Source of the DNA: Arthrobacter sp. TMP15
GTDB taxonomy: Bacteria > Actinomycetota > Actinomycetes > Actinomycetales > Micrococcaceae
DNA: 64,000 nucleotides
NCBI RefSeq assembly: GCF_039529835.1
Contig: NZ_CP154263.1
Location: 1 to 64,000 of the forward strand
Direction of reading: 5' to 3'
The notes under the pieces: generated by a model
Databases searched by the model: none
What the model saw: the letters and a program-made list of their open reading frames with translations, nothing else
What the model was told of the DNA's origin: nothing
Translations under genes and position numbers: made by a program
In this document: piece after piece, positions 16,652-40,945 of the stretch
Position numbering within the stretch: position 1 is the first letter of the stretch
How the letters are laid out: each line of letters starts with the position of its first letter

Positions 16652-17148
16652 AAACCATCCGTTACTTTCTTTTGTAGCCCGTAAAAGAGTACGGATTGGG
16701 CTTGTCGGCTATCGGTCTCGCCAAGAAGAGCAGGCCAGGATGGACGATTTGCTACAGCGTAATTCGTGTTCGAAGGGTGTAACTTATACTAGTTTTGGGG
16801 TGGCGCCGCTGCCGGATGCCGAAGACCTCAATGTATTAGAACATCGCATTTGCGAGGTCTGCACTGGTGCGGCATTTCTTCCGGTTGTATAGCCCGATTT
16901 GTATGCTCGACGAGAACGATTCCAGCATCGCAGTTCTCGGGGGAGAGTCGCCGGCGCCTGCCCCCGAGAACGCTAAACGTTGATTCGTTTGCAATCATTG
17001 TCTCGACTGCACGGCTGACGAACATTTATGGCTCAGACAGTGGTCGGCATGGCATGGCATATCCTTGGCAAGCGTTCAGTAACGTGTGGTCTTTGTGCCG
17101 AAACACTGAGAGTGAACGGATGATATTCGGATCAGGTGGGTGGTTTTC
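16652..17148. other. Intergenic region before the first FUSC-like gene
   Basis: No supported gene. The last 120 bases (from about 17026) are homologous to the region just before the second FUSC-like gene (from about 39644), so the duplication includes the promoter. Confidence 0.5.
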
Positions 17149-18332
17149 GTGTTGCAGCAGACTTGGAAACGGTTCTTAGTTTGGGCGAAATCGAGCGTGG
17201 CAGGACAGAGGCTGCTGTTGGCCGCTAAAACGTCGCTGGCTGTGGGAGTGGCATGGATTTTAGCCCGTTACATGCCCGGAGTGGCTGATAAATATCCGTA
17301 CTATGCTCCACTGGGCGCTTTGATCAGCATGTACCCGACGTTGATGGGATCGATGCGTGCAGGAGTCCAAACGTTGGCGGGACTGCTTTTAGGCATTGCG
17401 CTTGCCGCGGGCGTTCTTTTAGCAGGAACTCCGAACATTTTCAGTATTTCCTTAGCGGTAGGGTTGGGCGTTTTGATAGCAGGTCACCCTCGTTTGGGCG
17501 CGGGCAAAGACTATGTGCCCGTGGCCGCTCTCTTTGTTTTGATCGTTGGTGGGCAGGATGCGGATTCGTACTCAATCGGGTACGCCCTGCAGATGGGGTT
17601 GGGAGTCACAGTGGGATTGGTCGTGAATCTGCTGATCTTTCCCCCTTTGGCCATAGATGCCGCTCGTTTGCAGGTTTCTCGCGGGAGGAACCTGCTTGTC
17701 GGTCAGCTAGAGGACATCGCGCGTGCGTTGGTAGAGAATTGGCCACCGGAACATGAGGATTGGTCCCAGCGCTCAGGGCTTATTAACACTACTGTGGGTG
17801 AGATTAGGGGAGCGGCGTACCACGCCGATGAAAGCCGTAAAGGTAACCCCCGTGCATACCTGCATTCCCGTCACCAACATGTCACTGACAGCTTTGAAGA
17901 CCTGAGCACTTTGGAAGCCATCGCCTTTCATATTCGGGATATTACAGAGGTGCTCTCCACTGTGATCTGGGGCAACGGCTCTAATAATCGGCTGGATCCA
18001 AAGACCTGCAAGCCCCTGAGCGATTGTCTGCAATCGGTAGCATCTCTGATGAGTTCTTGGGATGAGGGCACGGCCGAGCAGGAAAGCTTCGATCAAGCTC
18101 GGGAGGGACTCGATTTGCTCGATTCTGAACTGAAACGTTCAGCGCGCCAAGAGGAACAATCACTGACCCCAGGGGCAGCGGTAGCTTTCGATTGCGAACG
18201 GATCTTAAACTCCCTGCACCAACGCATTATGAAAGATACAGCAGAACGCTCTGTTTAGAAGGAAAAATTCATAGCACCCATGATCTTTGAAACGTTCTTT
18301 TTATCTTTCGTCCCACGATGGTTACCGCATGG
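17026..18332. repeat. Large direct repeat, copy A (FUSC-like gene with flanks)
   Basis: About 1.3 kb matching 39644-40945 in the same orientation. It includes some 120 bases upstream and 70 downstream of the gene. Coding identity by eye exceeds 90%. The copies lie 22.6 kb apart and offer a substrate for homologous recombination. Confidence 0.9.
17149..18258 (+). CDS. FUSC-family membrane protein, copy A
   Basis: About 369 residues. The N-terminal half has six or so hydrophobic segments (TSLAVGVAWILARYMPG, AGVQTLAGLLLGIALAAGV, ALFVLIVGG, MGLGVTVGLVVNLLIF). The C-terminal half is a soluble helical domain. This fits the FUSC/aromatic-acid exporter-like family, proposed efflux proteins for aromatic carboxylates and similar compounds. 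Substrate unknown. The preferred start is GTG 17149, matching copy B at 39762 and preceded by GGTGGGTGG; another GTG at 17140 is in frame. Copy B is about 95% identical in protein. Confidence 0.82.
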   Translation: MLQQTWKRFLVWAKSSVAGQRLLLAAKTSLAVGVAWILARYMPGVADKYPYYAPLGALISMYPTLMGSMRAGVQTLAGLLLGIALAAGVLLAGTPNIFSISLAVGLGVLIAGHPRLGAGKDYVPVAALFVLIVGGQDADSYSIGYALQMGLGVTVGLVVNLLIFPPLAIDAARLQVSRGRNLLVGQLEDIARALVENWPPEHEDWSQRSGLINTTVGEIRGAAYHADESRKGNPRAYLHSRHQHVTDSFEDLSTLEAIAFHIRDITEVLSTVIWGNGSNNRLDPKTCKPLSDCLQSVASLMSSWDEGTAEQESFDQAREGLDLLDSELKRSARQEEQSLTPGAAVAFDCERILNSLHQRIMKDTAERSV

Positions 18333-29254: not shown

Positions 29255-29998
29255 TCAACCAATGGTGCTCGCTTGAAGGACGATGTTTTTCCCCCACAGA
29301 TCTTCAGTGAAGCAGGTAATGATAATTAGTCGACCGGGGACAATGTCCCAAATGTAGCTTTGTCGCAGAGTGTCCTTAGTTTCTGTGGTTATTTTCTCGA
29401 CCACAAAGGTCAAATTTCCCGCCGTTGTAGTCACGATGAACCGATCGCCTAGCTTGGCCTGACTGCTGATGTTGTTAAAGGGCGAACCGCGGCCTTCCCA
29501 GCTGTGACCTACGATGTATGTGGTATTTGTTGATACTGGACCCGGCGACCCGTAATTTGTCAGCCAGTAAGCCTCAAGTGTTGGAGGCGGCACGATGGAT
29601 CCGCTGAGTGTTTCGGCGTCCGTTGGATAGAGCGCTAGTACGCTCTGATCCATTCCGATAGTGGGGTAGCTGATGTGGAGAGGTATCGCTACTTCGGTAT
29701 TGGGCTTTTGCGCATCGGACGGACCCGCGATTCCAGGTAGTTTCTCCTGAGCTGTGGACGTTGGTGAAAGCGCAATGGTCTTGGGGGTGGCAGGATTTTT
29801 TTGGGGGGCCGCAGAGCTCCTTATCGCGGACCGTATTGAGGTAGCAGAAACGCTGATTGGACTGCTCTCGGTCGATGCCATGGATGCCATACTTATGACC
29901 AGAACGCACGTACCCAAGATGGCAAAGCCTGCAGCACTCCACTTGCGACCACCGTCAGAGCGATGATGACCACTCACCATCGCTCTGTGCCCATTCAT
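29255..29998 (-). CDS. Class F-type sortase
   Basis: A 247-residue membrane-anchored sortase. One N-terminal membrane segment (about 21-38) is followed by a Ser/Thr/Pro-rich linker, then the catalytic barrel from about residue 103. The catalytic His is in YIVGHSWEG (about H165) and the Cys in IIITCFTED (about C229), as in actinobacterial class F enzymes. The conserved arginine is not obvious by eye, the matching area being GKNIVLQA. Sortases attach secreted proteins to peptidoglycan. It is three bases downstream of the DUF3494 adhesin gene, its likely co-transcribed substrate, though that protein has no clear LPXTG. Confidence 0.82.
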   Translation of the reverse strand: MNGHRAMVSGHHRSDGGRKWSAAGFAILGTCVLVISMASMASTESSPISVSATSIRSAIRSSAAPQKNPATPKTIALSPTSTAQEKLPGIAGPSDAQKPNTEVAIPLHISYPTIGMDQSVLALYPTDAETLSGSIVPPPTLEAYWLTNYGSPGPVSTNTTYIVGHSWEGRGSPFNNISSQAKLGDRFIVTTTAGNLTFVVEKITTETKDTLRQSYIWDIVPGRLIIITCFTEDLWGKNIVLQASTIG

Positions 29999-30001
29999 CC
30001 G

Positions 30002-31144
30002 CTAGTGCTTTCGCCGTCCCTGTAGCCGCAACCAGAAGACGCCAGCGAGCCCGACTAATCCGGCTATTATCGTGCCGGCTATCGGGCCGCTCGCGTTTAA
30101 ATGACTCACGGCTGCGGCAGTGTCAACATTTACACCGTTGTTTCGGCCTGCCCCGTTGCCTGCTCCATTAGTCGTAGATGAATCAGTCACTGTAGCTTCA
30201 GGTGTCACGGATGTGATTGTTGATGTGGGCGTAGTGGTTGCTGTCACAGTCACCGTCTGCGTGCTTGTAGCAGTCGGAGTAGTTGTAGGTGCGACTGTTG
30301 CTGTTGGGGTGTCCGTCGCGATCGCAGTGGTTGTCGGTGTTGGGGTGTCCGTCGCGGTTGGAGTGACAGTTGGCATTACGAGGTCACAACCGGGGGTAGT
30401 GAAAACGTTGTTGTCCAGAGAGACCTGACCATTGCGGGCAAGTGCACGTCCTTCCAGCACGGCACCAGTGGTTACAGAGATGGACGTTAAAGCCATAATG
30501 GTGCCCTTGAACGTGGAATCAGTGCCTAACGTTGCAGAGCTTCCGACTTGCCAATAGACGTTGCATGCTTGGGCACTGTTGGTGAGAATGATGTTGCTTG
30601 CTGAAGCTGTGATTAGCGTTGATGCGATCTGAAAAATGAAGACTGAGCTGGGATCACCTTGTCCGTCCAGTGTAAGAGTTCCACTCAGGGCCAGAGGACC
30701 CGTCGAATTGTAAACTCCTTCCGGCAAGGTACGTCCTACTAAGTCACCGGCTACGCTCTCGGTCAATGCCTGACTAGCAGTAGCGTTATAAGCAATAATC
30801 ACATCTGACTGTGCCTGAAGCGCTTGCGCGTCGCCGGCATGGGATGCCCCGCCCACTATTCCCGGTGGGAAACCTGTAATAGCGGTTCCGGGGCTTACAC
30901 CTAGGCTGCCCTGTAGCACTGATGGGCCGGTATTGGTCACAGTTGTCCCGCCAAGGACTGAGTACTCCGCCGCGGTACCAAGATCTACTGGAGTCGCGGC
31001 AAGGACTGGCCCGAGAAAGACCAACGGAGAGGCAAGAATGACAGCAGCAATTGCACCTATAAAGGTTACGAGAGTTCGGCGCCGAGCATGAGTTGCCTGT
31101 GGCTGTAGATGCTTGGAAGATTTTCGCGCTGAGCTGTGATTCAT
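30002..31144 (-). CDS. DUF3494 ice-binding-type surface adhesin
   Basis: A 380-residue exported protein. It has a long basic N-region and hydrophobic core (about 25-48), with cleavage likely after VLAA. The DUF3494 beta-helix domain (about 52-253) contains DLGTAAEYSVLGGTTVTNTG and the usual TLTLDGQGDPSSVFIFQIAS. A Thr/Pro stalk (about 257-325) and a C-terminal membrane segment with a basic tail (GRRKH) follow. DUF3494 proteins bind ice or act as adhesins at surfaces. The tail has hydrophobic-plus-basic sorting architecture, but LPXTG is absent (HLNASGP lies there instead). The ribosome-binding site is AGAGGGAT. First gene of a two-gene operon with the sortase. Confidence 0.87.
   Translation of the reverse strand: MNHSSARKSSKHLQPQATHARRRTLVTFIGAIAAVILASPLVFLGPVLAATPVDLGTAAEYSVLGGTTVTNTGPSVLQGSLGVSPGTAITGFPPGIVGGASHAGDAQALQAQSDVIIAYNATASQALTESVAGDLVGRTLPEGVYNSTGPLALSGTLTLDGQGDPSSVFIFQIASTLITASASNIILTNSAQACNVYWQVGSSATLGTDSTFKGTIMALTSISVTTGAVLEGRALARNGQVSLDNNVFTTPGCDLVMPTVTPTATDTPTPTTTAIATDTPTATVAPTTTPTATSTQTVTVTATTTPTSTITSVTPEATVTDSSTTNGAGNGAGRNNGVNVDTAAAVSHLNASGPIAGTIIAGLVGLAGVFWLRLQGRRKH
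30300..30360. repeat. Short direct repeat in the adhesin stalk
   Basis: GTTGGGGTGTCCGTCGCG occurs twice in this stretch, encoding the ATDTPT-type stalk repeats of the adhesin. Such in-frame repeats can change stalk length by slippage. Confidence 0.7.
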
Positions 31145-31705: not shown

Positions 31706-32083
31706 TCATTTTGAGTGGTCAAGGGTGAGGTAGGCGATTTTCAGTTTGGTCATGGTTTGTGTGCCACACAACTGCAACGTTTCGAGTGTCTTGATTGCCG
31801 CGGTGGGCTTTCCGCTGTCAAGAAGGTGGATGATCTCTGTCGTCAGTTCGCTCAGGCGCTGTGCTCCGACCATGGCACTGGCGGTGCGCAGACTCAGTGC
31901 CGCATCCATGGCGTCCTCACGGTGGCCGGCCTTCACAGCATCGTAGATGCGTTTAAAACGGCCTGGCCACATATCAATGTATAGCAACACAAAGTGAGAA
32001 CAGAGAGACTTTTCACCGCCAAGGAACTCTTGAAGTGACTGTAGAACTTCGGGACAAAACAGCGACACACGTTCAGGATCCAT
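31706..32083 (-). CDS. Hpt-domain-like protein lacking the phospho-histidine
   Basis: About 125 residues, all-helical. The core AALSLRTASAMVGAQRLSEL matches the Hpt pattern (AAHxLKxxSxxxGAxxL), but the position normally held by the phosphorylated His is Leu. Hpt proteins relay phosphate between sensor kinases and receivers. This one could be an inactive decoy or binding module, or the resemblance could be fortuitous. ATG 32083 is chosen because AAGGAGGAG lies about nine bases upstream; longer versions to 32242 have no such signal. It stands alone between the adhesin operon and the signal-peptidase fusion. Confidence 0.6.
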   Translation of the reverse strand: MDPERVSLFCPEVLQSLQEFLGGEKSLCSHFVLLYIDMWPGRFKRIYDAVKAGHREDAMDAALSLRTASAMVGAQRLSELTTEIIHLLDSGKPTAAIKTLETLQLCGTQTMTKLKIAYLTLDHSK

Positions 32084-32378
32084 GATCTGGCTGCTCCTCC
32101 TTGAATACGTCACTCTGACCCGTATGGTAAATATTATTGGTATCTGGGACAGGCCCCAACGGTATATCGAAAAAAGCATTCTTACTCGTTCTGTATCAAT
32201 AAATTTGTCCCGACTCCATCCTCTATAGATTGGAAGTTGCATAAAGGTACGTACTTCCAGGGTTGGGTGCCAATCTTTTTAGTTGGCACACCACCGGTTC
32301 CTATGTGGTGGCCTTACCGATTGCTACGTTCTCAGAGCACCTAGGATCCGTGATGGCTTTCAGCCACAGGTTTTGATA

Positions 32379-34937
32379 TTAGAAATCCCGGTCTAAGGGA
32401 GGCGTCTCTGTCACTGGTGTCGTGGATGAAGCAGCACCGTTGGTGTTTCTGACTGCTGAGAGTGGACTCCACACCATGTTCGCCGAGGTGGTGTTCGTGC
32501 GCAGGCTGCTGGAACCACTGGAGACATTGCCTACCGTAACGGTAACAACGGTGCGGGGAATCCCATTGATCGTGACCGTCGAAGCAGTCATGGTGCCGTT
32601 CAGATAAACAGTCCTGAAGCTCCTGGCGAAGTTTCCCTTGGTATTGACCGAGCCCAAGTTCACGGAGCTATTAGATCGTTGGATGTCTATGGTGTCCCCA
32701 CTGTTCCCCAGTCCTAGCAGGTTCCCGTCTCGTAGATGAATCGTCACGGGGATGGGGGTCCCGTTCCATCCTGGTGTCACGGTGGTGAGGTTTACCAGTT
32801 GGCTGTAGCTGAAGTTCAGGGTGTCGCCATTGTCGATCCGTCCTGCGGTCCCGGGGCCGTTGGTGGTTTGAATGTCTGCTGCGCGCAGTGGGCTGTTATC
32901 CACACGACGATTGGTGATGGTGCTGGAGGTGGTTTCTTTACCGGTGGCATCTAGCAGGATGGCGCGGACGTCGTACAGTCCATCGCTCACTATGGCAGTG
33001 TTCCAAGGGCACGCGAAGGGTGCAGTGTTTACGCTGCATCGTGTGGTCCATGTGGTGGTCCCTGCTGGGGCAGTTTGGATACGAACGTTGGTGATGCCGG
33101 CTGTGGAATTAGCAAAAGCGCGAAGGGTGACGGTGCCGGTGAGGTACGCGCCTGGGTCTTCTACTGAGACTGTGGCGACAGTGTTATCAACCGTGCGGAA
33201 AGATGTGGCGGAAGAGAGCGAGGTGTTTCCTGCTTCGTCGGTGGCAACAGCACGGAAGCTGTAGGTGCCGTAAGCCATGGTGGTGGTATCGAAGCGACAG
33301 GAGTATGGCTCTTCTTCGAGGTTGCACATCGTGACCCATGTAGAGGTGCCAGAGCGCAGATACTGTACTTGTACTTGAGCCACTCCCGAGGTCGCATCTG
33401 AGGCGGTTGCTTCGAAGGTTGTGGTGCCGCGGATCGTGACTCCTGGATCTTTCAGAGAAACTAATGGTGCAGTGTTGTCCACCGTCACATCTGTAACGAT
33501 GTTGGAATAGGTAGTGCTAGTTCCGGAGACGGCCACGGCACGAAGGTCATAGTCCTTATCAGCGATTGATGTCGTATTCCAAGCGCAGTCATAAGGCGCT
33601 GTGAGTTTTTGACAGATCGGTTTCCAGTTATTGGTATCGGCGAGGGTGTATTCAACTCGTACTGTGTAGGGGATCGTTCCAGGGCTACTGAGAGTCGTGC
33701 TGAGGTTGATAGTACCGCGGGCAGTTTCACCTGGATCGGCTAGCACCACGGCAAAGGAGTTGGCTACCGTGGTGCGGATCGGTTCGGTCGTGGTGCTGAG
33801 CCCGGCTTTATCTGTCGCTGTGGCACGCAGGAGGTAGGCGCCATCTGGCAGAGTCGTCGTGTTCCAAGCGCACGCGTAGGGTGTGGATTCAGATGTGCAC
33901 AGGGTGACCCATGTGCCGGTAGATGCAAGAGCATACTGAATGACCACTTTACGGATACCACTGACAGCATCCGAAGCTGTTGCGCTCAATAGCACAGTGT
34001 CCCTGACCGTTGTCCCGGGGCTTGCTAAAGCAACCGTGGGAGGGACCCAGTCGGTGGCTGCGCTGAACGTATTGGCAGCGTTAGCGGTGGTGGCTGTGAA
34101 GGCGGCCGAGGAGAAAGCACTGGCTCCCAGCACTGTCATAGCAACTAGAGCTACAACAATTCCAAAGGCGGTACTGACCCTTTGAACGGGTGAGGGAACA
34201 GCCTCATCGGGCCAACTTGTAGCTTGCTGGATCTGTTCGGTTCTTTCCAACCCCGAGGCGTCATCATCGTCGCCGTCGTTTAGGTCACCTTCATCGCGGT
34301 CACCGTTGTTGTCGTCTCCGTCGTCTCCGTTGTCACGAGGAGCATTGTCACCATCGTCCGCTAAGGGTCGGCGGCTGGTAACTCCGAGAACCGCTGCTGC
34401 TACGGCTGCCAACGTCAATAGGGACCATAGTGCAAGGGGAGGGAAGTCTCCGCTGGCTAGCCACAGCCCCGGTAGTCCAACCCAGGGGATGAGCAAGCGA
34501 GCCTGTCCATTAATTTGTTCTCTGGTGATCGGGGTGCTGTCAACGTCAACGTTGGCATCGCCGGCTGTCACGAAGGTGCCGTCCGTGTTTTCTCCCACGA
34601 TGCGGTGCAAGCGTATTTTTTCGACCCCGCTTGGTTCGGCTTCCGCAGGGCTGCGGTATTCCACGACCCCACCCATGGGAACAGGACTGCCAGCGCCCAG
34701 AGGGGCGGCTAATACTACGTCGCCGCGAGAGATGTGTGGTTCCATAGAACCGCTCTGTACTACGGTGCCGTGCCAACCGAAGAGGACGGGCAGGACAGCA
34801 AAAAGGGCAAGGCAGAGCATGACGCCTAGATATAACCGCGAGGCTAGTGCTGCGAGGAAACGCACCCAACCATCAGCAGCGAAAAGCTCTGTAACCCAGG
34901 ACGGACCGGGCGTAGAGCCGGTCCTGTCCCGGGTCAC
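32379..34937 (-). CDS. SipW-type signal peptidase fused to Ig-like repeats
   Basis: An 852-residue multi-domain protein. Membrane helix 1 (about 32-54) is followed by a signal peptidase I domain of the ER/SipW type: Ser64 in SGSMEP, His111 in RLHRIVG and Asp in TAGDANVD. Membrane helix 2 is at about 164-187. An acidic linker (about 194-228) should be cytoplasmic. A second signal-like helix (about 254-275) runs into SSAAFTATTANAANTF, almost the same as the processing region of the CalY-like neighbour. Four repeats of about 96 residues follow (296-680), each with a Cys pair in a C-x8/9-C-x-W/F-(N/D)T pattern, then a C-terminal domain. It starts with GTG, 18 bases after the CalY-like gene. Self-cleavage releasing the repeats is inferred. 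Confidence 0.85.
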   Translation of the reverse strand: MTRDRTGSTPGPSWVTELFAADGWVRFLAALASRLYLGVMLCLALFAVLPVLFGWHGTVVQSGSMEPHISRGDVVLAAPLGAGSPVPMGGVVEYRSPAEAEPSGVEKIRLHRIVGENTDGTFVTAGDANVDVDSTPITREQINGQARLLIPWVGLPGLWLASGDFPPLALWSLLTLAAVAAAVLGVTSRRPLADDGDNAPRDNGDDGDDNNGDRDEGDLNDGDDDDASGLERTEQIQQATSWPDEAVPSPVQRVSTAFGIVVALVAMTVLGASAFSSAAFTATTANAANTFSAATDWVPPTVALASPGTTVRDTVLLSATASDAVSGIRKVVIQYALASTGTWVTLCTSESTPYACAWNTTTLPDGAYLLRATATDKAGLSTTTEPIRTTVANSFAVVLADPGETARGTINLSTTLSSPGTIPYTVRVEYTLADTNNWKPICQKLTAPYDCAWNTTSIADKDYDLRAVAVSGTSTTYSNIVTDVTVDNTAPLVSLKDPGVTIRGTTTFEATASDATSGVAQVQVQYLRSGTSTWVTMCNLEEEPYSCRFDTTTMAYGTYSFRAVATDEAGNTSLSSATSFRTVDNTVATVSVEDPGAYLTGTVTLRAFANSTAGITNVRIQTAPAGTTTWTTRCSVNTAPFACPWNTAIVSDGLYDVRAILLDATGKETTSSTITNRRVDNSPLRAADIQTTNGPGTAGRIDNGDTLNFSYSQLVNLTTVTPGWNGTPIPVTIHLRDGNLLGLGNSGDTIDIQRSNSSVNLGSVNTKGNFARSFRTVYLNGTMTASTVTINGIPRTVVTVTVGNVSSGSSSLRTNTTSANMVWSPLSAVRNTNGAASSTTPVTETPPLDRDF

Positions 34938-34955
34938 TATGTATGAGCTCTCGGG

Positions 34956-35582
34956 TTACGGGATCACGGGAGAATTGTTTGACTGGAGTTCCCAGACGAG
35001 GTCGATGCTCACGACTGCTCCCTGCATGGCGTTGACCTGATCTTGGGTCATTCCGGTGGTGTCGAAGCGCCATGTCCCGCGGTAGCTCTGGGTTTCACCC
35101 GGGGTTCCTGCGGTGTCCCACTCCGCACCGCCGGTGGCGAAGTCACGGTTAACGGTGGCCAACTGAGACAGCGGAAGCTCAGGAACATCGTTGGCAGTCG
35201 GGGTGAATCCGGTGCAGTCATTGAATGAACCGCCGGTGCCCTGTTCCAGGTCGAAGAAGATCTTCGCTTCTAAGCCCTTGGAAGAGACTAGGTTCTGTGT
35301 GTAGGCCTTGACCACACCTGGAACGTTGGAGTTAGAAGTAACCACGATACACTTCTGGCCGGTCTGGCCGGGAACGATCTGGTTCACCGTGAACGCTGCA
35401 GCACCTAGGTCATCATCGGTGAGGGTTACGTTGCCGGCGGCCCAAGAGTTTCCCGCGTTGCGGGTGGAGGCCGTGAACGCGGCCTGTGAGCCTTGCCAGA
35501 CCATACCTCCAGCGATCAAAATCGCGATCGGGGCGGCAGCAAACATACTGATTCTGCGTGTACGTGAAGAGGGAGTGCGCAT
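34956..35582 (-). CDS. TasA/CalY-like SipW-dependent surface protein
   Basis: A 208-residue exported protein with the camelysin/TasA layout. It has a short basic N-terminus, a hydrophobic segment (about 13-29), then GSQAAFTASTRNAGNSWAAG, where SipW-type peptidase cuts around QA-AFT. The mature domain is beta-rich with QIVPGQTGQKCIVVTSNS and VVSIDLVWELQ, plus two cysteines. TasA-type proteins form amyloid-like fibres or surface structures in biofilms. The gene lies directly before the SipW-like peptidase fusion, the standard enzyme-substrate arrangement. Both are probably transcribed from a promoter upstream of 35582. Confidence 0.85.
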   Translation of the reverse strand: MRTPSSRTRRISMFAAAPIAILIAGGMVWQGSQAAFTASTRNAGNSWAAGNVTLTDDDLGAAAFTVNQIVPGQTGQKCIVVTSNSNVPGVVKAYTQNLVSSKGLEAKIFFDLEQGTGGSFNDCTGFTPTANDVPELPLSQLATVNRDFATGGAEWDTAGTPGETQSYRGTWRFDTTGMTQDQVNAMQGAVVSIDLVWELQSNNSPVIP

Positions 35583-39643: not shown

Positions 39644-40945
39644 TCATGGCTCAAACAGTGGTGGGCAAGGCATATCCAGGGCAACCGTTCGGCAAGGTGT
39701 GGTCTTTGTGCCGAAACACGGAGAGTGAACGGATGATACTCAGATCAGGTGGAGGGTTTTCGTGTTGAAGCAGACTTGGAAACGGTTCTTGGTGTGGACG
39801 AAATCGAGCGTGGCAGGACAGAGGTTGCTGTTGGCCGCGAAAACATCACTGGCTGTGGGTGTGGCATGGTTTTTGGCCCGTTACATGCCCGGAGTGGCTG
39901 ATAAATATCCGTATTACGCTCCGCTGGGTGCTTTGGTTAGCATGTATCCGACGTTGATGGGGTCGGTGCGTGCAGGAGTGCAAACGTTGGCGGGGCTTGT
40001 TTTAGGCATTGTGCTAGCTGCGGGGGTTCTTCTAGCAGGTACTCCGAATATTCTCAGTATTTCCTTAGCGGTAGGGCTGGGTGTTTTGGTAGCAGGTCAC
40101 CCTCGTTTGGGCGCGGGCAAAGAGTATGTGCCCGTGGCTGTTCTCTTCGTTTTGATCGTTGGTGGGCAGGATGCCGATTCATACTCGATTGGGTACGCGC
40201 TGCAGATGGGGCTGGGCGTCACCGTCGGATTGATCGTGAATCTGCTGATCTTCCCGCCTTTGGCTATAGATGCCGCCCGATTGCGGGTTTCTCGCGGTAG
40301 GAACCTGCTGGCCGGTCAACTAGAGGACATCGCGCGTGCTTTGGTAGAGAATTGGCCGCCGGAACATGAAGATTGGTCCCAACGCGCAGGGCTTATCAAC
40401 ACCACTGTGAGCGAGATTCGGGGTGCGGCGTATCATGCGGATGAAAGCCGTAAGGGTAACCCCCGTGCGTACCTGCATTCCCGTCACCAACTTGTCACTG
40501 AGAGCTTTGAAGACCTGAGTACTTTGGAAGCCATCGCCTTTAATATTCGGGATATTACAGAGGTGCTCACTACTGTGATTTGGGGCAACGGCTCTAACAA
40601 TCGGCTTGATCCAAAGACTTGCAAGCCCCTGAGCGAGTGTCTGCAATCGGTGGCATCTCTAATGGTTTCTTGGGATGAGGGCACGGCCGAGCAGGAAAGC
40701 TTTGATCAAGCTCGGGAGGCACTTAATCTGCTCGATTCTGAACTGAAACGCTCCGCGCGTCAAGAGGAACTATCGCTGACCCCAGGGGCAGCGGTAGCTT
40801 TCGATTGCGAGCGGATCTTAAACTCCCTGCACCAACGCATTATGAAAGATACGACAGAAGAGTCGGTTTAGAAGGAAAGATTCATAGCACTCACCGTCCC
40901 TGAAGTTTTCTTTTTATCTTTCGTCCCACGGTGGTTACCGCACGG
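39644..40945. repeat. Large direct repeat, copy B (FUSC-like gene with flanks)
   Basis: Counterpart of 17026-18332. Homology begins about 118 bases upstream of the gene and stops about 75 bases after it, just where the CDF gene ends. Differences are spread through the copy and mostly silent, so both copies have evolved under constraint since duplication or were acquired separately. Confidence 0.9.
39762..40871 (+). CDS. FUSC-family membrane protein, copy B
   Basis: A 369-residue homologue of the protein at 17149 with about 95% identity by eye. Same topology: N-terminal membrane half, soluble C-terminal half. GTG start after GGTGGAGGG at good spacing. Both copies are intact, arguing that extra dosage or two conditions of expression are useful. 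Substrate unknown; family members are proposed exporters of aromatic acids. Confidence 0.82.
   Translation: MLKQTWKRFLVWTKSSVAGQRLLLAAKTSLAVGVAWFLARYMPGVADKYPYYAPLGALVSMYPTLMGSVRAGVQTLAGLVLGIVLAAGVLLAGTPNILSISLAVGLGVLVAGHPRLGAGKEYVPVAVLFVLIVGGQDADSYSIGYALQMGLGVTVGLIVNLLIFPPLAIDAARLRVSRGRNLLAGQLEDIARALVENWPPEHEDWSQRAGLINTTVSEIRGAAYHADESRKGNPRAYLHSRHQLVTESFEDLSTLEAIAFNIRDITEVLTTVIWGNGSNNRLDPKTCKPLSECLQSVASLMVSWDEGTAEQESFDQAREALNLLDSELKRSARQEELSLTPGAAVAFDCERILNSLHQRIMKDTTEESV

Follow-up and report, generated by a model that had tools for sequence, protein, structure and literature searches.

A predicted fusion of a SipW-type signal peptidase to a TapA-like fibre-end subunit in Arthrobacter sp. 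TMP15

The window analysed here, the first 64,000 nucleotides of contig NZ_CP154263.1 of Arthrobacter sp. TMP15 (assembly GCF_039529835.1), carries two adjacent genes that code for a CalY/TasA-like protein and for a SipW-type signal peptidase. The peptidase continues, in the same chain, into a further signal helix, a cleavage motif and a tail of immunoglobulin (Ig)-like repeats. We propose, with a probability of roughly 0.58, that the pair is a compact operon for TasA-type fibres in which SipW and a TapA-like end subunit form one chain, and in which a cut by SipW would turn the start of the tail into a donor strand. An earlier note on this stretch, whose span of 32379-35582 takes in both genes, had read the fusion as a possible self-processing polyprotein that could release its repeats together with the CalY-like protein; as a whole, that reading is partly supported. 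The segment shared by the two proteins continues far beyond the predicted cut and resembles the TasA donor strand in some features. This suggests that the freed tail might be built into the CalY-like fibre as a TapA-like end subunit, which goes beyond the earlier idea of release. Signal peptidases are usually regarded as separate enzymes. Searches of the open literature of PubMed Central (PMC), a scope that does not extend to subscription papers and preprints, turned up nothing that we recognised as describing SipW fused to a substrate or the present operons of actinobacteria.

A signal peptidase and its apparent substrate in one chain

The open reading frame (ORF) of the fusion starts with GTG, 18 nucleotides (nt) behind that of the CalY-like protein, and has no stop inside the frame. 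Ser64 and His111, which the earlier note assigned to the peptidase, are numbered correctly (SGSMEP starts at residue 62 and LHRIVG at residue 110), and GDAN supplies Asp127. The three columns are invariant in alignments A1 (13 rows) and A3 (34 rows); since the rows of A1 were cut by motif, the invariance of A, T and T around its site is partly so by construction and was not used as evidence. All 34 members of A3 matched TIGR02228 at E≤0.01, and the family profile matched SEC11C and SEC11A among solved structures in a PDB sequence search. Judged by its motifs and similarity, the domain would be a SipW/Sec11-type enzyme with predicted peptidase activity, and not a TIGR02228 equivalog.

Hydrophobic stretches lie at about residues 25-43, 168-186 and 257-275 of the fusion. 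In an AlphaFold model (34 sequences; mean predicted local distance difference test score, pLDDT, 78.0; predicted template modelling score, pTM, 0.36), helices 21-52 and 165-184 are placed around the catalytic strands and a third helix spans residues 250-273. The pLDDT falls below 50 at residues 188-247 and 273-295, and Ig domains begin at residue 301. The linker (residues 187-250, 64 amino acids, aa) contains 21 D/E and 5 K/R, and positive residues follow helix 2 (SRR) and precede helix 3 (VQR), as expected if the linker is cytoplasmic and helix 3 points outward. The topology predicted in this way is consistent with the claim that the Ig repeats face outside. Pfam recognises four Big_7 Ig stretches in the tail, where pLDDT is mostly at least 85, and the top Foldseek match of the array was 6xi3, the extender of a large adhesion protein (E 1.4e-13, with low TM-scores of 0.17/0.29). 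The C-terminal domain behind the array, in which AlphaFold predicts strands, had no Pfam match listed at E≤1.

The separate protein next door was also seen correctly: the CalY-like ORF carries GSQAAFTASTRNAGNSW, and its site reads GSQA/AF (the slash marks the predicted cut). Its AlphaFold model (36 sequences, pLDDT 77.7) found the TasA fibre 8aur at rank 1 in a Foldseek search of the PDB (E 1.2e-4, probability 1.00, TM-scores 0.45/0.41), followed by the archaeal filaments 7ueg and 7pnb (Pyrobaculum bundling pilus, Sulfolobus 0406 filament). The protein had no NCBIfam match at E≤1, and a PDB sequence search with it gave no convincing relative (best E 0.086). On the strength of the model we describe the partner as TasA-like, not as TasA, and predict that it forms fibres. 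A profile of 36 partners, run against the 3.7 Mb genome of the strain, had a single match at E≤0.1 besides the CalY-like gene, a weak one to the internal segment of the fusion (E 0.054).

The partner-type site and its recurrence among relatives

A site profile was trained on 60 distinct sites of CalY-like partners and on no SipW ORF. The partner consensus is QxSYA/AFTATTRNAGNSW, with Ala at P1 in 93% and Phe at P2' in 98% of the sites. Of 169 distinct SipW ORFs we scanned 60, namely those with a profile score of 80 or more and a tail of 120 aa or more. In 56 of the 60, a hydrophobic segment preceded the best match, which lay 20-170 aa past the SipW domain, and 51 of those 56 reached p<1e-4 against 815,804 background windows. 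In a masked test, in which the site was located by P3'-P13' alone, 54/60 matches fell behind helix 3; at the positions hidden during the search, these 54 had A/G/S at P1 without exception, S/A/T/V/G at P3 in 52 and Phe at P2' in 49. As a baseline for P1, A, S and G make up 34% of the tail residues. The place was found by P5-P1' alone in 17/60 ORFs and by P3, P1, P1' and P2' alone in 39/60, so most of the signal lies behind the cut. On the partner-trained and masked scans we rejected a chance likeness of the site. The second signal helix and cleavage motif pointed out earlier are real and conserved, and they match the partner's site; in the window fusion AAFTATT begins at residue 278, and the predicted site reads SSA/AFTATTANAANTF. 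The P2 residue is Ser in this fusion and mostly Ser, Thr or Ala in fusions.

The motif common to fusions and partners, Phe at P2' and Trp or Phe near P13', has a spacing like that of the TasA contacts. The donor strand of TasA comprises residues 28-38, and contacts are made by F29, I32 and F39 (PMC9674648); the protein is cut before A28, which makes F29 its P2' residue. Four SipW relatives with an Hpt-like tail (L035, L038, L045 and L047) served as informal negative cases and had no site behind the SipW domain. Weak site matches inside the membrane proteins L217 and L218 were taken as chance and dropped. Fused and partner sites from the same locus were 48.1% identical, versus a shuffled mean of 44.9% (standard deviation 0.9, 2000 shuffles, 50 pairs), a difference that still contains kinship and to which we give little weight.

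The earlier note had proposed a search for the fusion in other actinobacteria, and the arrangement recurs widely there. With the first 297 residues as query, 15 places in 14 of 197 genomes of the family, the strain's own included, matched strongly, at 95 bits or more; the remaining matches were weaker S26 relatives. The closest relative found shares 74% identity over residues 2-297, and others have the same architecture. A profile search of genome contigs gave 170 relatives, and 40 of the best 80 loci, which were kept, hold a member of the fusion set, in genera that include Arthrobacter, Pseudarthrobacter, Paenarthrobacter, Kocuria, Cryobacterium, Cellulomonas, Nocardioides and Glycomyces; the other loci of the best 80 (L113 on) come mostly from other phyla and are unfused. 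Matches at E≤1e-15, fused or unfused, occurred in 56/347 genomes of the order and 27/396 of the phylum. The model used to gather relatives includes helix 3 and the site and favours fusions, so the fused fraction is no estimate of prevalence. The fusion set itself (n=63) was drawn with looser limits and chosen with the site, and we draw nothing from its own P1, P3 and P2' counts. Of these 63 fusions, 61 retain the Ser, His and Asp columns, and 52 have a CalY-like gene on the same strand whose end lies no more than 400 nt upstream of the SipW domain. At L224, the fused SipW is flanked on both sides by CalY-like genes.

A quick tree of the 169 SipW domains implies 18 changes of the fused state (shuffled mean 50.8), of which well-supported branches force five or more. 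In a clade of 36 domains, with a support of 98 in the Shimodaira-Hasegawa-like approximate likelihood ratio test (SH-aLRT), 33 are scored as fusions. Two of the remaining members, L102 and L105, are ice-binding fusions whose site is weak, and the last is truncated (L101/L066). Three fusions from Patescibacteria (L123, L138, L151) lie far from the actinobacterial ones. An 'Acidobacteria' metagenome-assembled genome (L112) is sister to an actinobacterial one (L110) and may be misbinned. The reading frame stops early in fusion copies of Arthrobacter echini (L101/L066), Kocuria rosea (L064/L092) and Paenarthrobacter sp. Z7-10 (L059/L089), and in the latter two the similarity to the passenger domain continues in another frame.

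The passengers are mutually unrelated, and the site is alike. Pfam scans of 20 of the 63 tails identified Big_7 Ig (the type in the window), Ice_binding, Laminin_G_3, RCC1, CBM_2, a lamin tail domain, and WD40 with fn3; further passengers were CBM_5_12 (under the cut-off) or glycine-rich. The tails of L098 and L042 had matches below the cut-offs only, and those of L163, L184, L191 and L138 had no Pfam match. BLAST sorted the 63 passengers into 22 groups, seven of which have more than one member; among the single ones, L064, L107 (at a contig end) and L157 are very short and L050 is doubtful. We also refetched 16 loci with their flanks, 13 of them with an unfused SipW. In four of these 13, namely L209 (NHL propeller), L212, L220 (RCC1) and L221, a hydrophobic stretch with this type of site occurs in an ORF separate from SipW; the four were taken as open frames, and in L212 and L221 the frame runs far upstream of the signal. 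The L212 passenger is similar to the one fused in L191 (30% over 288 aa, E 2e-19), and the RCC1 protein of L220 to the fused RCC1 of L186, RCC1 being a common repeat; those of L209 and L221 had no match among the fused passengers at E≤1e-3. That separate passengers with the same signal occur near unfused SipW makes the fused part look like a formerly separate SipW substrate.

In the window itself, a separate ice-binding-like protein is encoded near the fusion (30002-31144, minus strand; PF11999, 210 bits), and its domain is also the fused passenger in many relatives. A Tat-like motif (RRx followed by a hydrophobic stretch; Tat, twin-arginine translocation) precedes helix 3 in 8/12 ice-binding fusions (L059, L060, L061, L062, L063, L065, L088 and L097), 1/16 Ig fusions and 3/35 other fusions, and it occurs in 11/85 partners; the motif was picked after the data had been seen. 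Possibly, the ice-binding fusions have an internal Tat signal. The third helix of actinobacterial Rieske proteins is an internal Tat signal.

Proposed mechanism and competing explanations

In the mechanism that we propose, gene 1 would code for a CalY/TasA-like fibre subunit and gene 2 for a dedicated SipW peptidase joined to a TapA-like end subunit. Helices 1 and 2 would hold the catalytic domain outside the membrane, the acidic linker would bring the chain back to the cytoplasm, and helix 3 would act as an internal signal peptide that sends the Ig repeats outside. SipW would cut between Ala278 and Ala279, in cis or by one copy acting on another, as it would for the partner, and the freed AFTATTANAANTF end would be a donor strand that fits the groove of the CalY-like subunit. 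Since each Ig repeat is a complete fold, the freed portion would be confined to one end of the fibre, as an initiator or an adhesive end.

Helix 3 might instead stay uncut, as a permanent anchor of the Ig repeats beside the peptidase, with the same segment serving as donor strand at a membrane-bound fibre base. Helix 3 has about the length of an anchor in the AlphaFold model, TapA was observed at the membrane (PMC10151520), and P3'-P13' locates the place better than the cleavage positions do (54/60 vs 39/60), so that much of the conservation is unrelated to cleavage. The Phe at P2' could belong to a donor strand, too (PMC9674648). An anchor would not need, however, the small P1 (54/54), the small P3 (52/54) and the P2' Phe (49/54) that are together the cleavage signature of the partner, and we consider this arrangement rather unlikely. 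Decidedly unlikely, in our view, is a cut by an ordinary LepB-type signal peptidase, with the fusion merely keeping enzyme and passenger in step. Two LepB-type peptidases stand above the family cut-off in the window's genome, and L095 has an AQA site. TasA, with its Phe at P2', is cut by SipW and poorly by LepB, and the failure is blamed mainly on Trp at P2, a position that is small in most fusions; the same work found an aromatic P2' to be poor for LepB, which speaks against LepB in the 49/54 fusions with Phe there (PMC10269814). Moreover, the fused SipW keeps its catalytic residues.

Meaningless domain shuffling, in which a surface protein became fused to the peptidase gene next to it and now drifts, would agree with the wide differences between passengers and with the few truncated copies (L066/L101). 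It is very unlikely in view of the 36-domain clade (SH-aLRT 98), made up of 33 fusions, two more long-tailed proteins and one truncated copy, and of a site that is conserved between an unconserved linker and unrelated passengers. Separate translation of the passenger from an internal start codon, which would make a cut needless, is hardly credible. When linker codons were checked in 57 fusions, some in-frame ATG, GTG or TTG was present in 41, but 16 had none and only five had one with a Shine-Dalgarno-like 4-mer; the window fusion has one TTG without the 4-mer, and we rejected an internal start as unsupported.

Several observations weigh against the cut by SipW or against steps of the argument for it. 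By position, 4/60 scanned ORFs are exceptions (L105, L168, L174 and L176); in two of them, L174 and L176, the SipW domain is followed after 10-12 aa by the best match, and a third helix does not intervene. Five of the 56 well-placed sites have weaker scores (L102, L095, L067, L160 and L161), and in these, as in L105, the site is weak or different; that of L095 is readable as AQA/QGVF and might suit an ordinary signal peptidase. LepB could also cleave the window fusion, because the P2 residue is small (Ser) unlike the Trp of TasA. AlphaFold is silent on whether the site reaches Ser64 (pLDDT below 50 at 273-295, pTM 0.36). With 51.5 bits against a curated cut-off of 51.85, the window peptidase falls short of TIGR02228 by 0.35, and L187 and L194 (2/63 fusions), perhaps misaligned, are without a standard S/H/D column. 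The match between partner and TasA is one of fold, with modest TM-scores (0.45/0.41), and only 2/36 partners touch the TasA model NF046066 at E≤0.1 (best 0.011). A CalY-like gene was not found within 400 nt upstream in 11/63 fusions, five of which have at most 1.5 kb of upstream sequence and six at least 3 kb (L085, L138, L123, L050, L042 and L071); the set of 63 also includes the doubtful L050.

A peptidase joined to its own substrate, in an arrangement that is conserved in many actinobacteria and paired with a TasA-like subunit, would tie processing to the production of fibre ends at a ratio of one to one. It would predict TasA-type fibres across a large actinobacterial group, lend meaning to proteins probably annotated as 'signal peptidase I' and nothing more, and be a natural kit for putting different binding domains on a fibre end. 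More broadly, self-releasing fusions could be fibre-end adhesins in a wide class of bacteria, cut in cis, with the new strand plugging into a subunit encoded by the neighbouring gene. A single processing and docking module would then have been combined with a range of unrelated binding modules, possibly on a separate occasion in Patescibacteria (L123, L138, L151). We put this extension forward tentatively, as somewhat more apt to fail than to hold.

Operon map, neighbouring genes and known systems

Table 1. Predicted features of the operon, in window coordinates
Feature	Position	Strand	Length or residues	Basis
CalY/TasA-like fibre subunit (predicted), own SipW-type signal, site GSQA/AFTASTRNAGNSW	34956..35582	-	208 aa	ORF, AlphaFold and Foldseek
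Fusion: SipW-type signal peptidase, internal signal helix and site, Ig-repeat passenger	32379..34937	-	852 aa	
SipW/Sec11-type peptidase domain with flanking helices, S64/H111/D127	34386..34877	-	~aa 21-184	TIGR02228, PDB sequence match, alignments
Acidic linker, probably disordered, predicted cytoplasmic	34188..34376	-	~aa 188-250	Residue composition and pLDDT
Internal signal helix (helix 3), ends at predicted P1 Ala278	34104..34187	-	aa 251-278	Hydropathy, AlphaFold helix 250-273, relatives
Predicted new N-terminus and donor strand AFTATTANAANTFSA, P2' Phe280	34059..34103	-	from Ala279	Partner-trained profile, masked test, own-genome match
Four passenger Ig domains	32850..34037	-	~aa 301-696	Big_7 stretches, AlphaFold, Foldseek
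C-terminal beta-rich domain, family unassigned	32382..32849	-	~aa 697-852	AlphaFold strands

The contig that carries the operon has 112,311 bases and, by eye, a ParA-like ORF at 459-1292, which suggests that the operon may sit on a plasmid. A genome of the same species (G157) had only a weak match to the fusion query (E 1.9e-4). Behind the fusion, an Hpt-like ORF (31706-32242, minus strand) scores 23.2 bits with PF01627, against a cut-off of 24.6; at the position that we take to be that of the canonical histidine, it appears to have Leu (ALSLRTASAMVGA). Hpt-like domains are fused to the SipW-like proteins L035, L038, L045 and L047, lie within the SipW loci L039, L043, L046, L053 and L085, and are part of a longer ORF in L222. 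The ORF at 29255-29998 (minus strand), which we take by eye to be sortase-like from IITCF near its C-terminus, matched nothing in Pfam or NCBIfam, and none of the fetched loci holds a relative. The ORFs at 17140-18258 and 39762-40871 (plus strand), 372 and 369 aa long, look by eye like membrane proteins and closely resemble each other.

Polyproteins with a built-in protease also hold a protease and its own site in one chain. Unlike them, the window enzyme is a membrane signal peptidase, and the predicted cut lies at an internal signal helix. With the Sec11/SipW-type signal peptidases (TIGR02228) the enzyme shares the Ser, His and Asp residues and the sequence match to SEC11C and SEC11A; the known enzymes have no attached substrate, whereas the window enzyme bears a passenger with the enzyme's site. 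The sipW-tasA/capP/calY region of Bacillus cereus likewise combines SipW and TasA-like subunits with an assembly factor, CapP, but there CapP is a separate gene, and the excerpted account mentions no fusion (PMC13082335).

Another close parallel is the tapA-sipW-tasA operon of Bacillus subtilis, which has a dedicated SipW, a TasA-type subunit with Phe at P2' and an Ig protein that is cut by SipW and donates a strand from its unstructured N-terminus, each with a predicted counterpart in the window. In the window, by contrast, peptidase and Ig protein form one chain, the passenger consists of four tandem Ig domains and a C-terminal domain, and the subunit gene comes first. General Pfam and NCBIfam scans, which included no direct comparison with TapA, turned up no TapA model. 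The prediction does have one TapA-like trait, an Ig fold behind an unstructured N-terminal stretch at a SipW-type site, in a comparison that leaves aside the V-set type of TapA. By analogy the passenger may work like TapA; we do not claim that it belongs to the TapA family. TapA has an Ig fold, and its N-terminal strand complements TasA; it accepts no strand and hence stands only at the start of the filament, and a strain that secreted only TapA residues 44-57 formed proper biofilms (PMC10151520). In the same operon, tapA and sipW overlap by their stop and start (PMC10151520). This overlap, together with the Ig fold and strand of TapA, suggests that the window fusion is what would be expected from joining sipW to a tapA-like gene.

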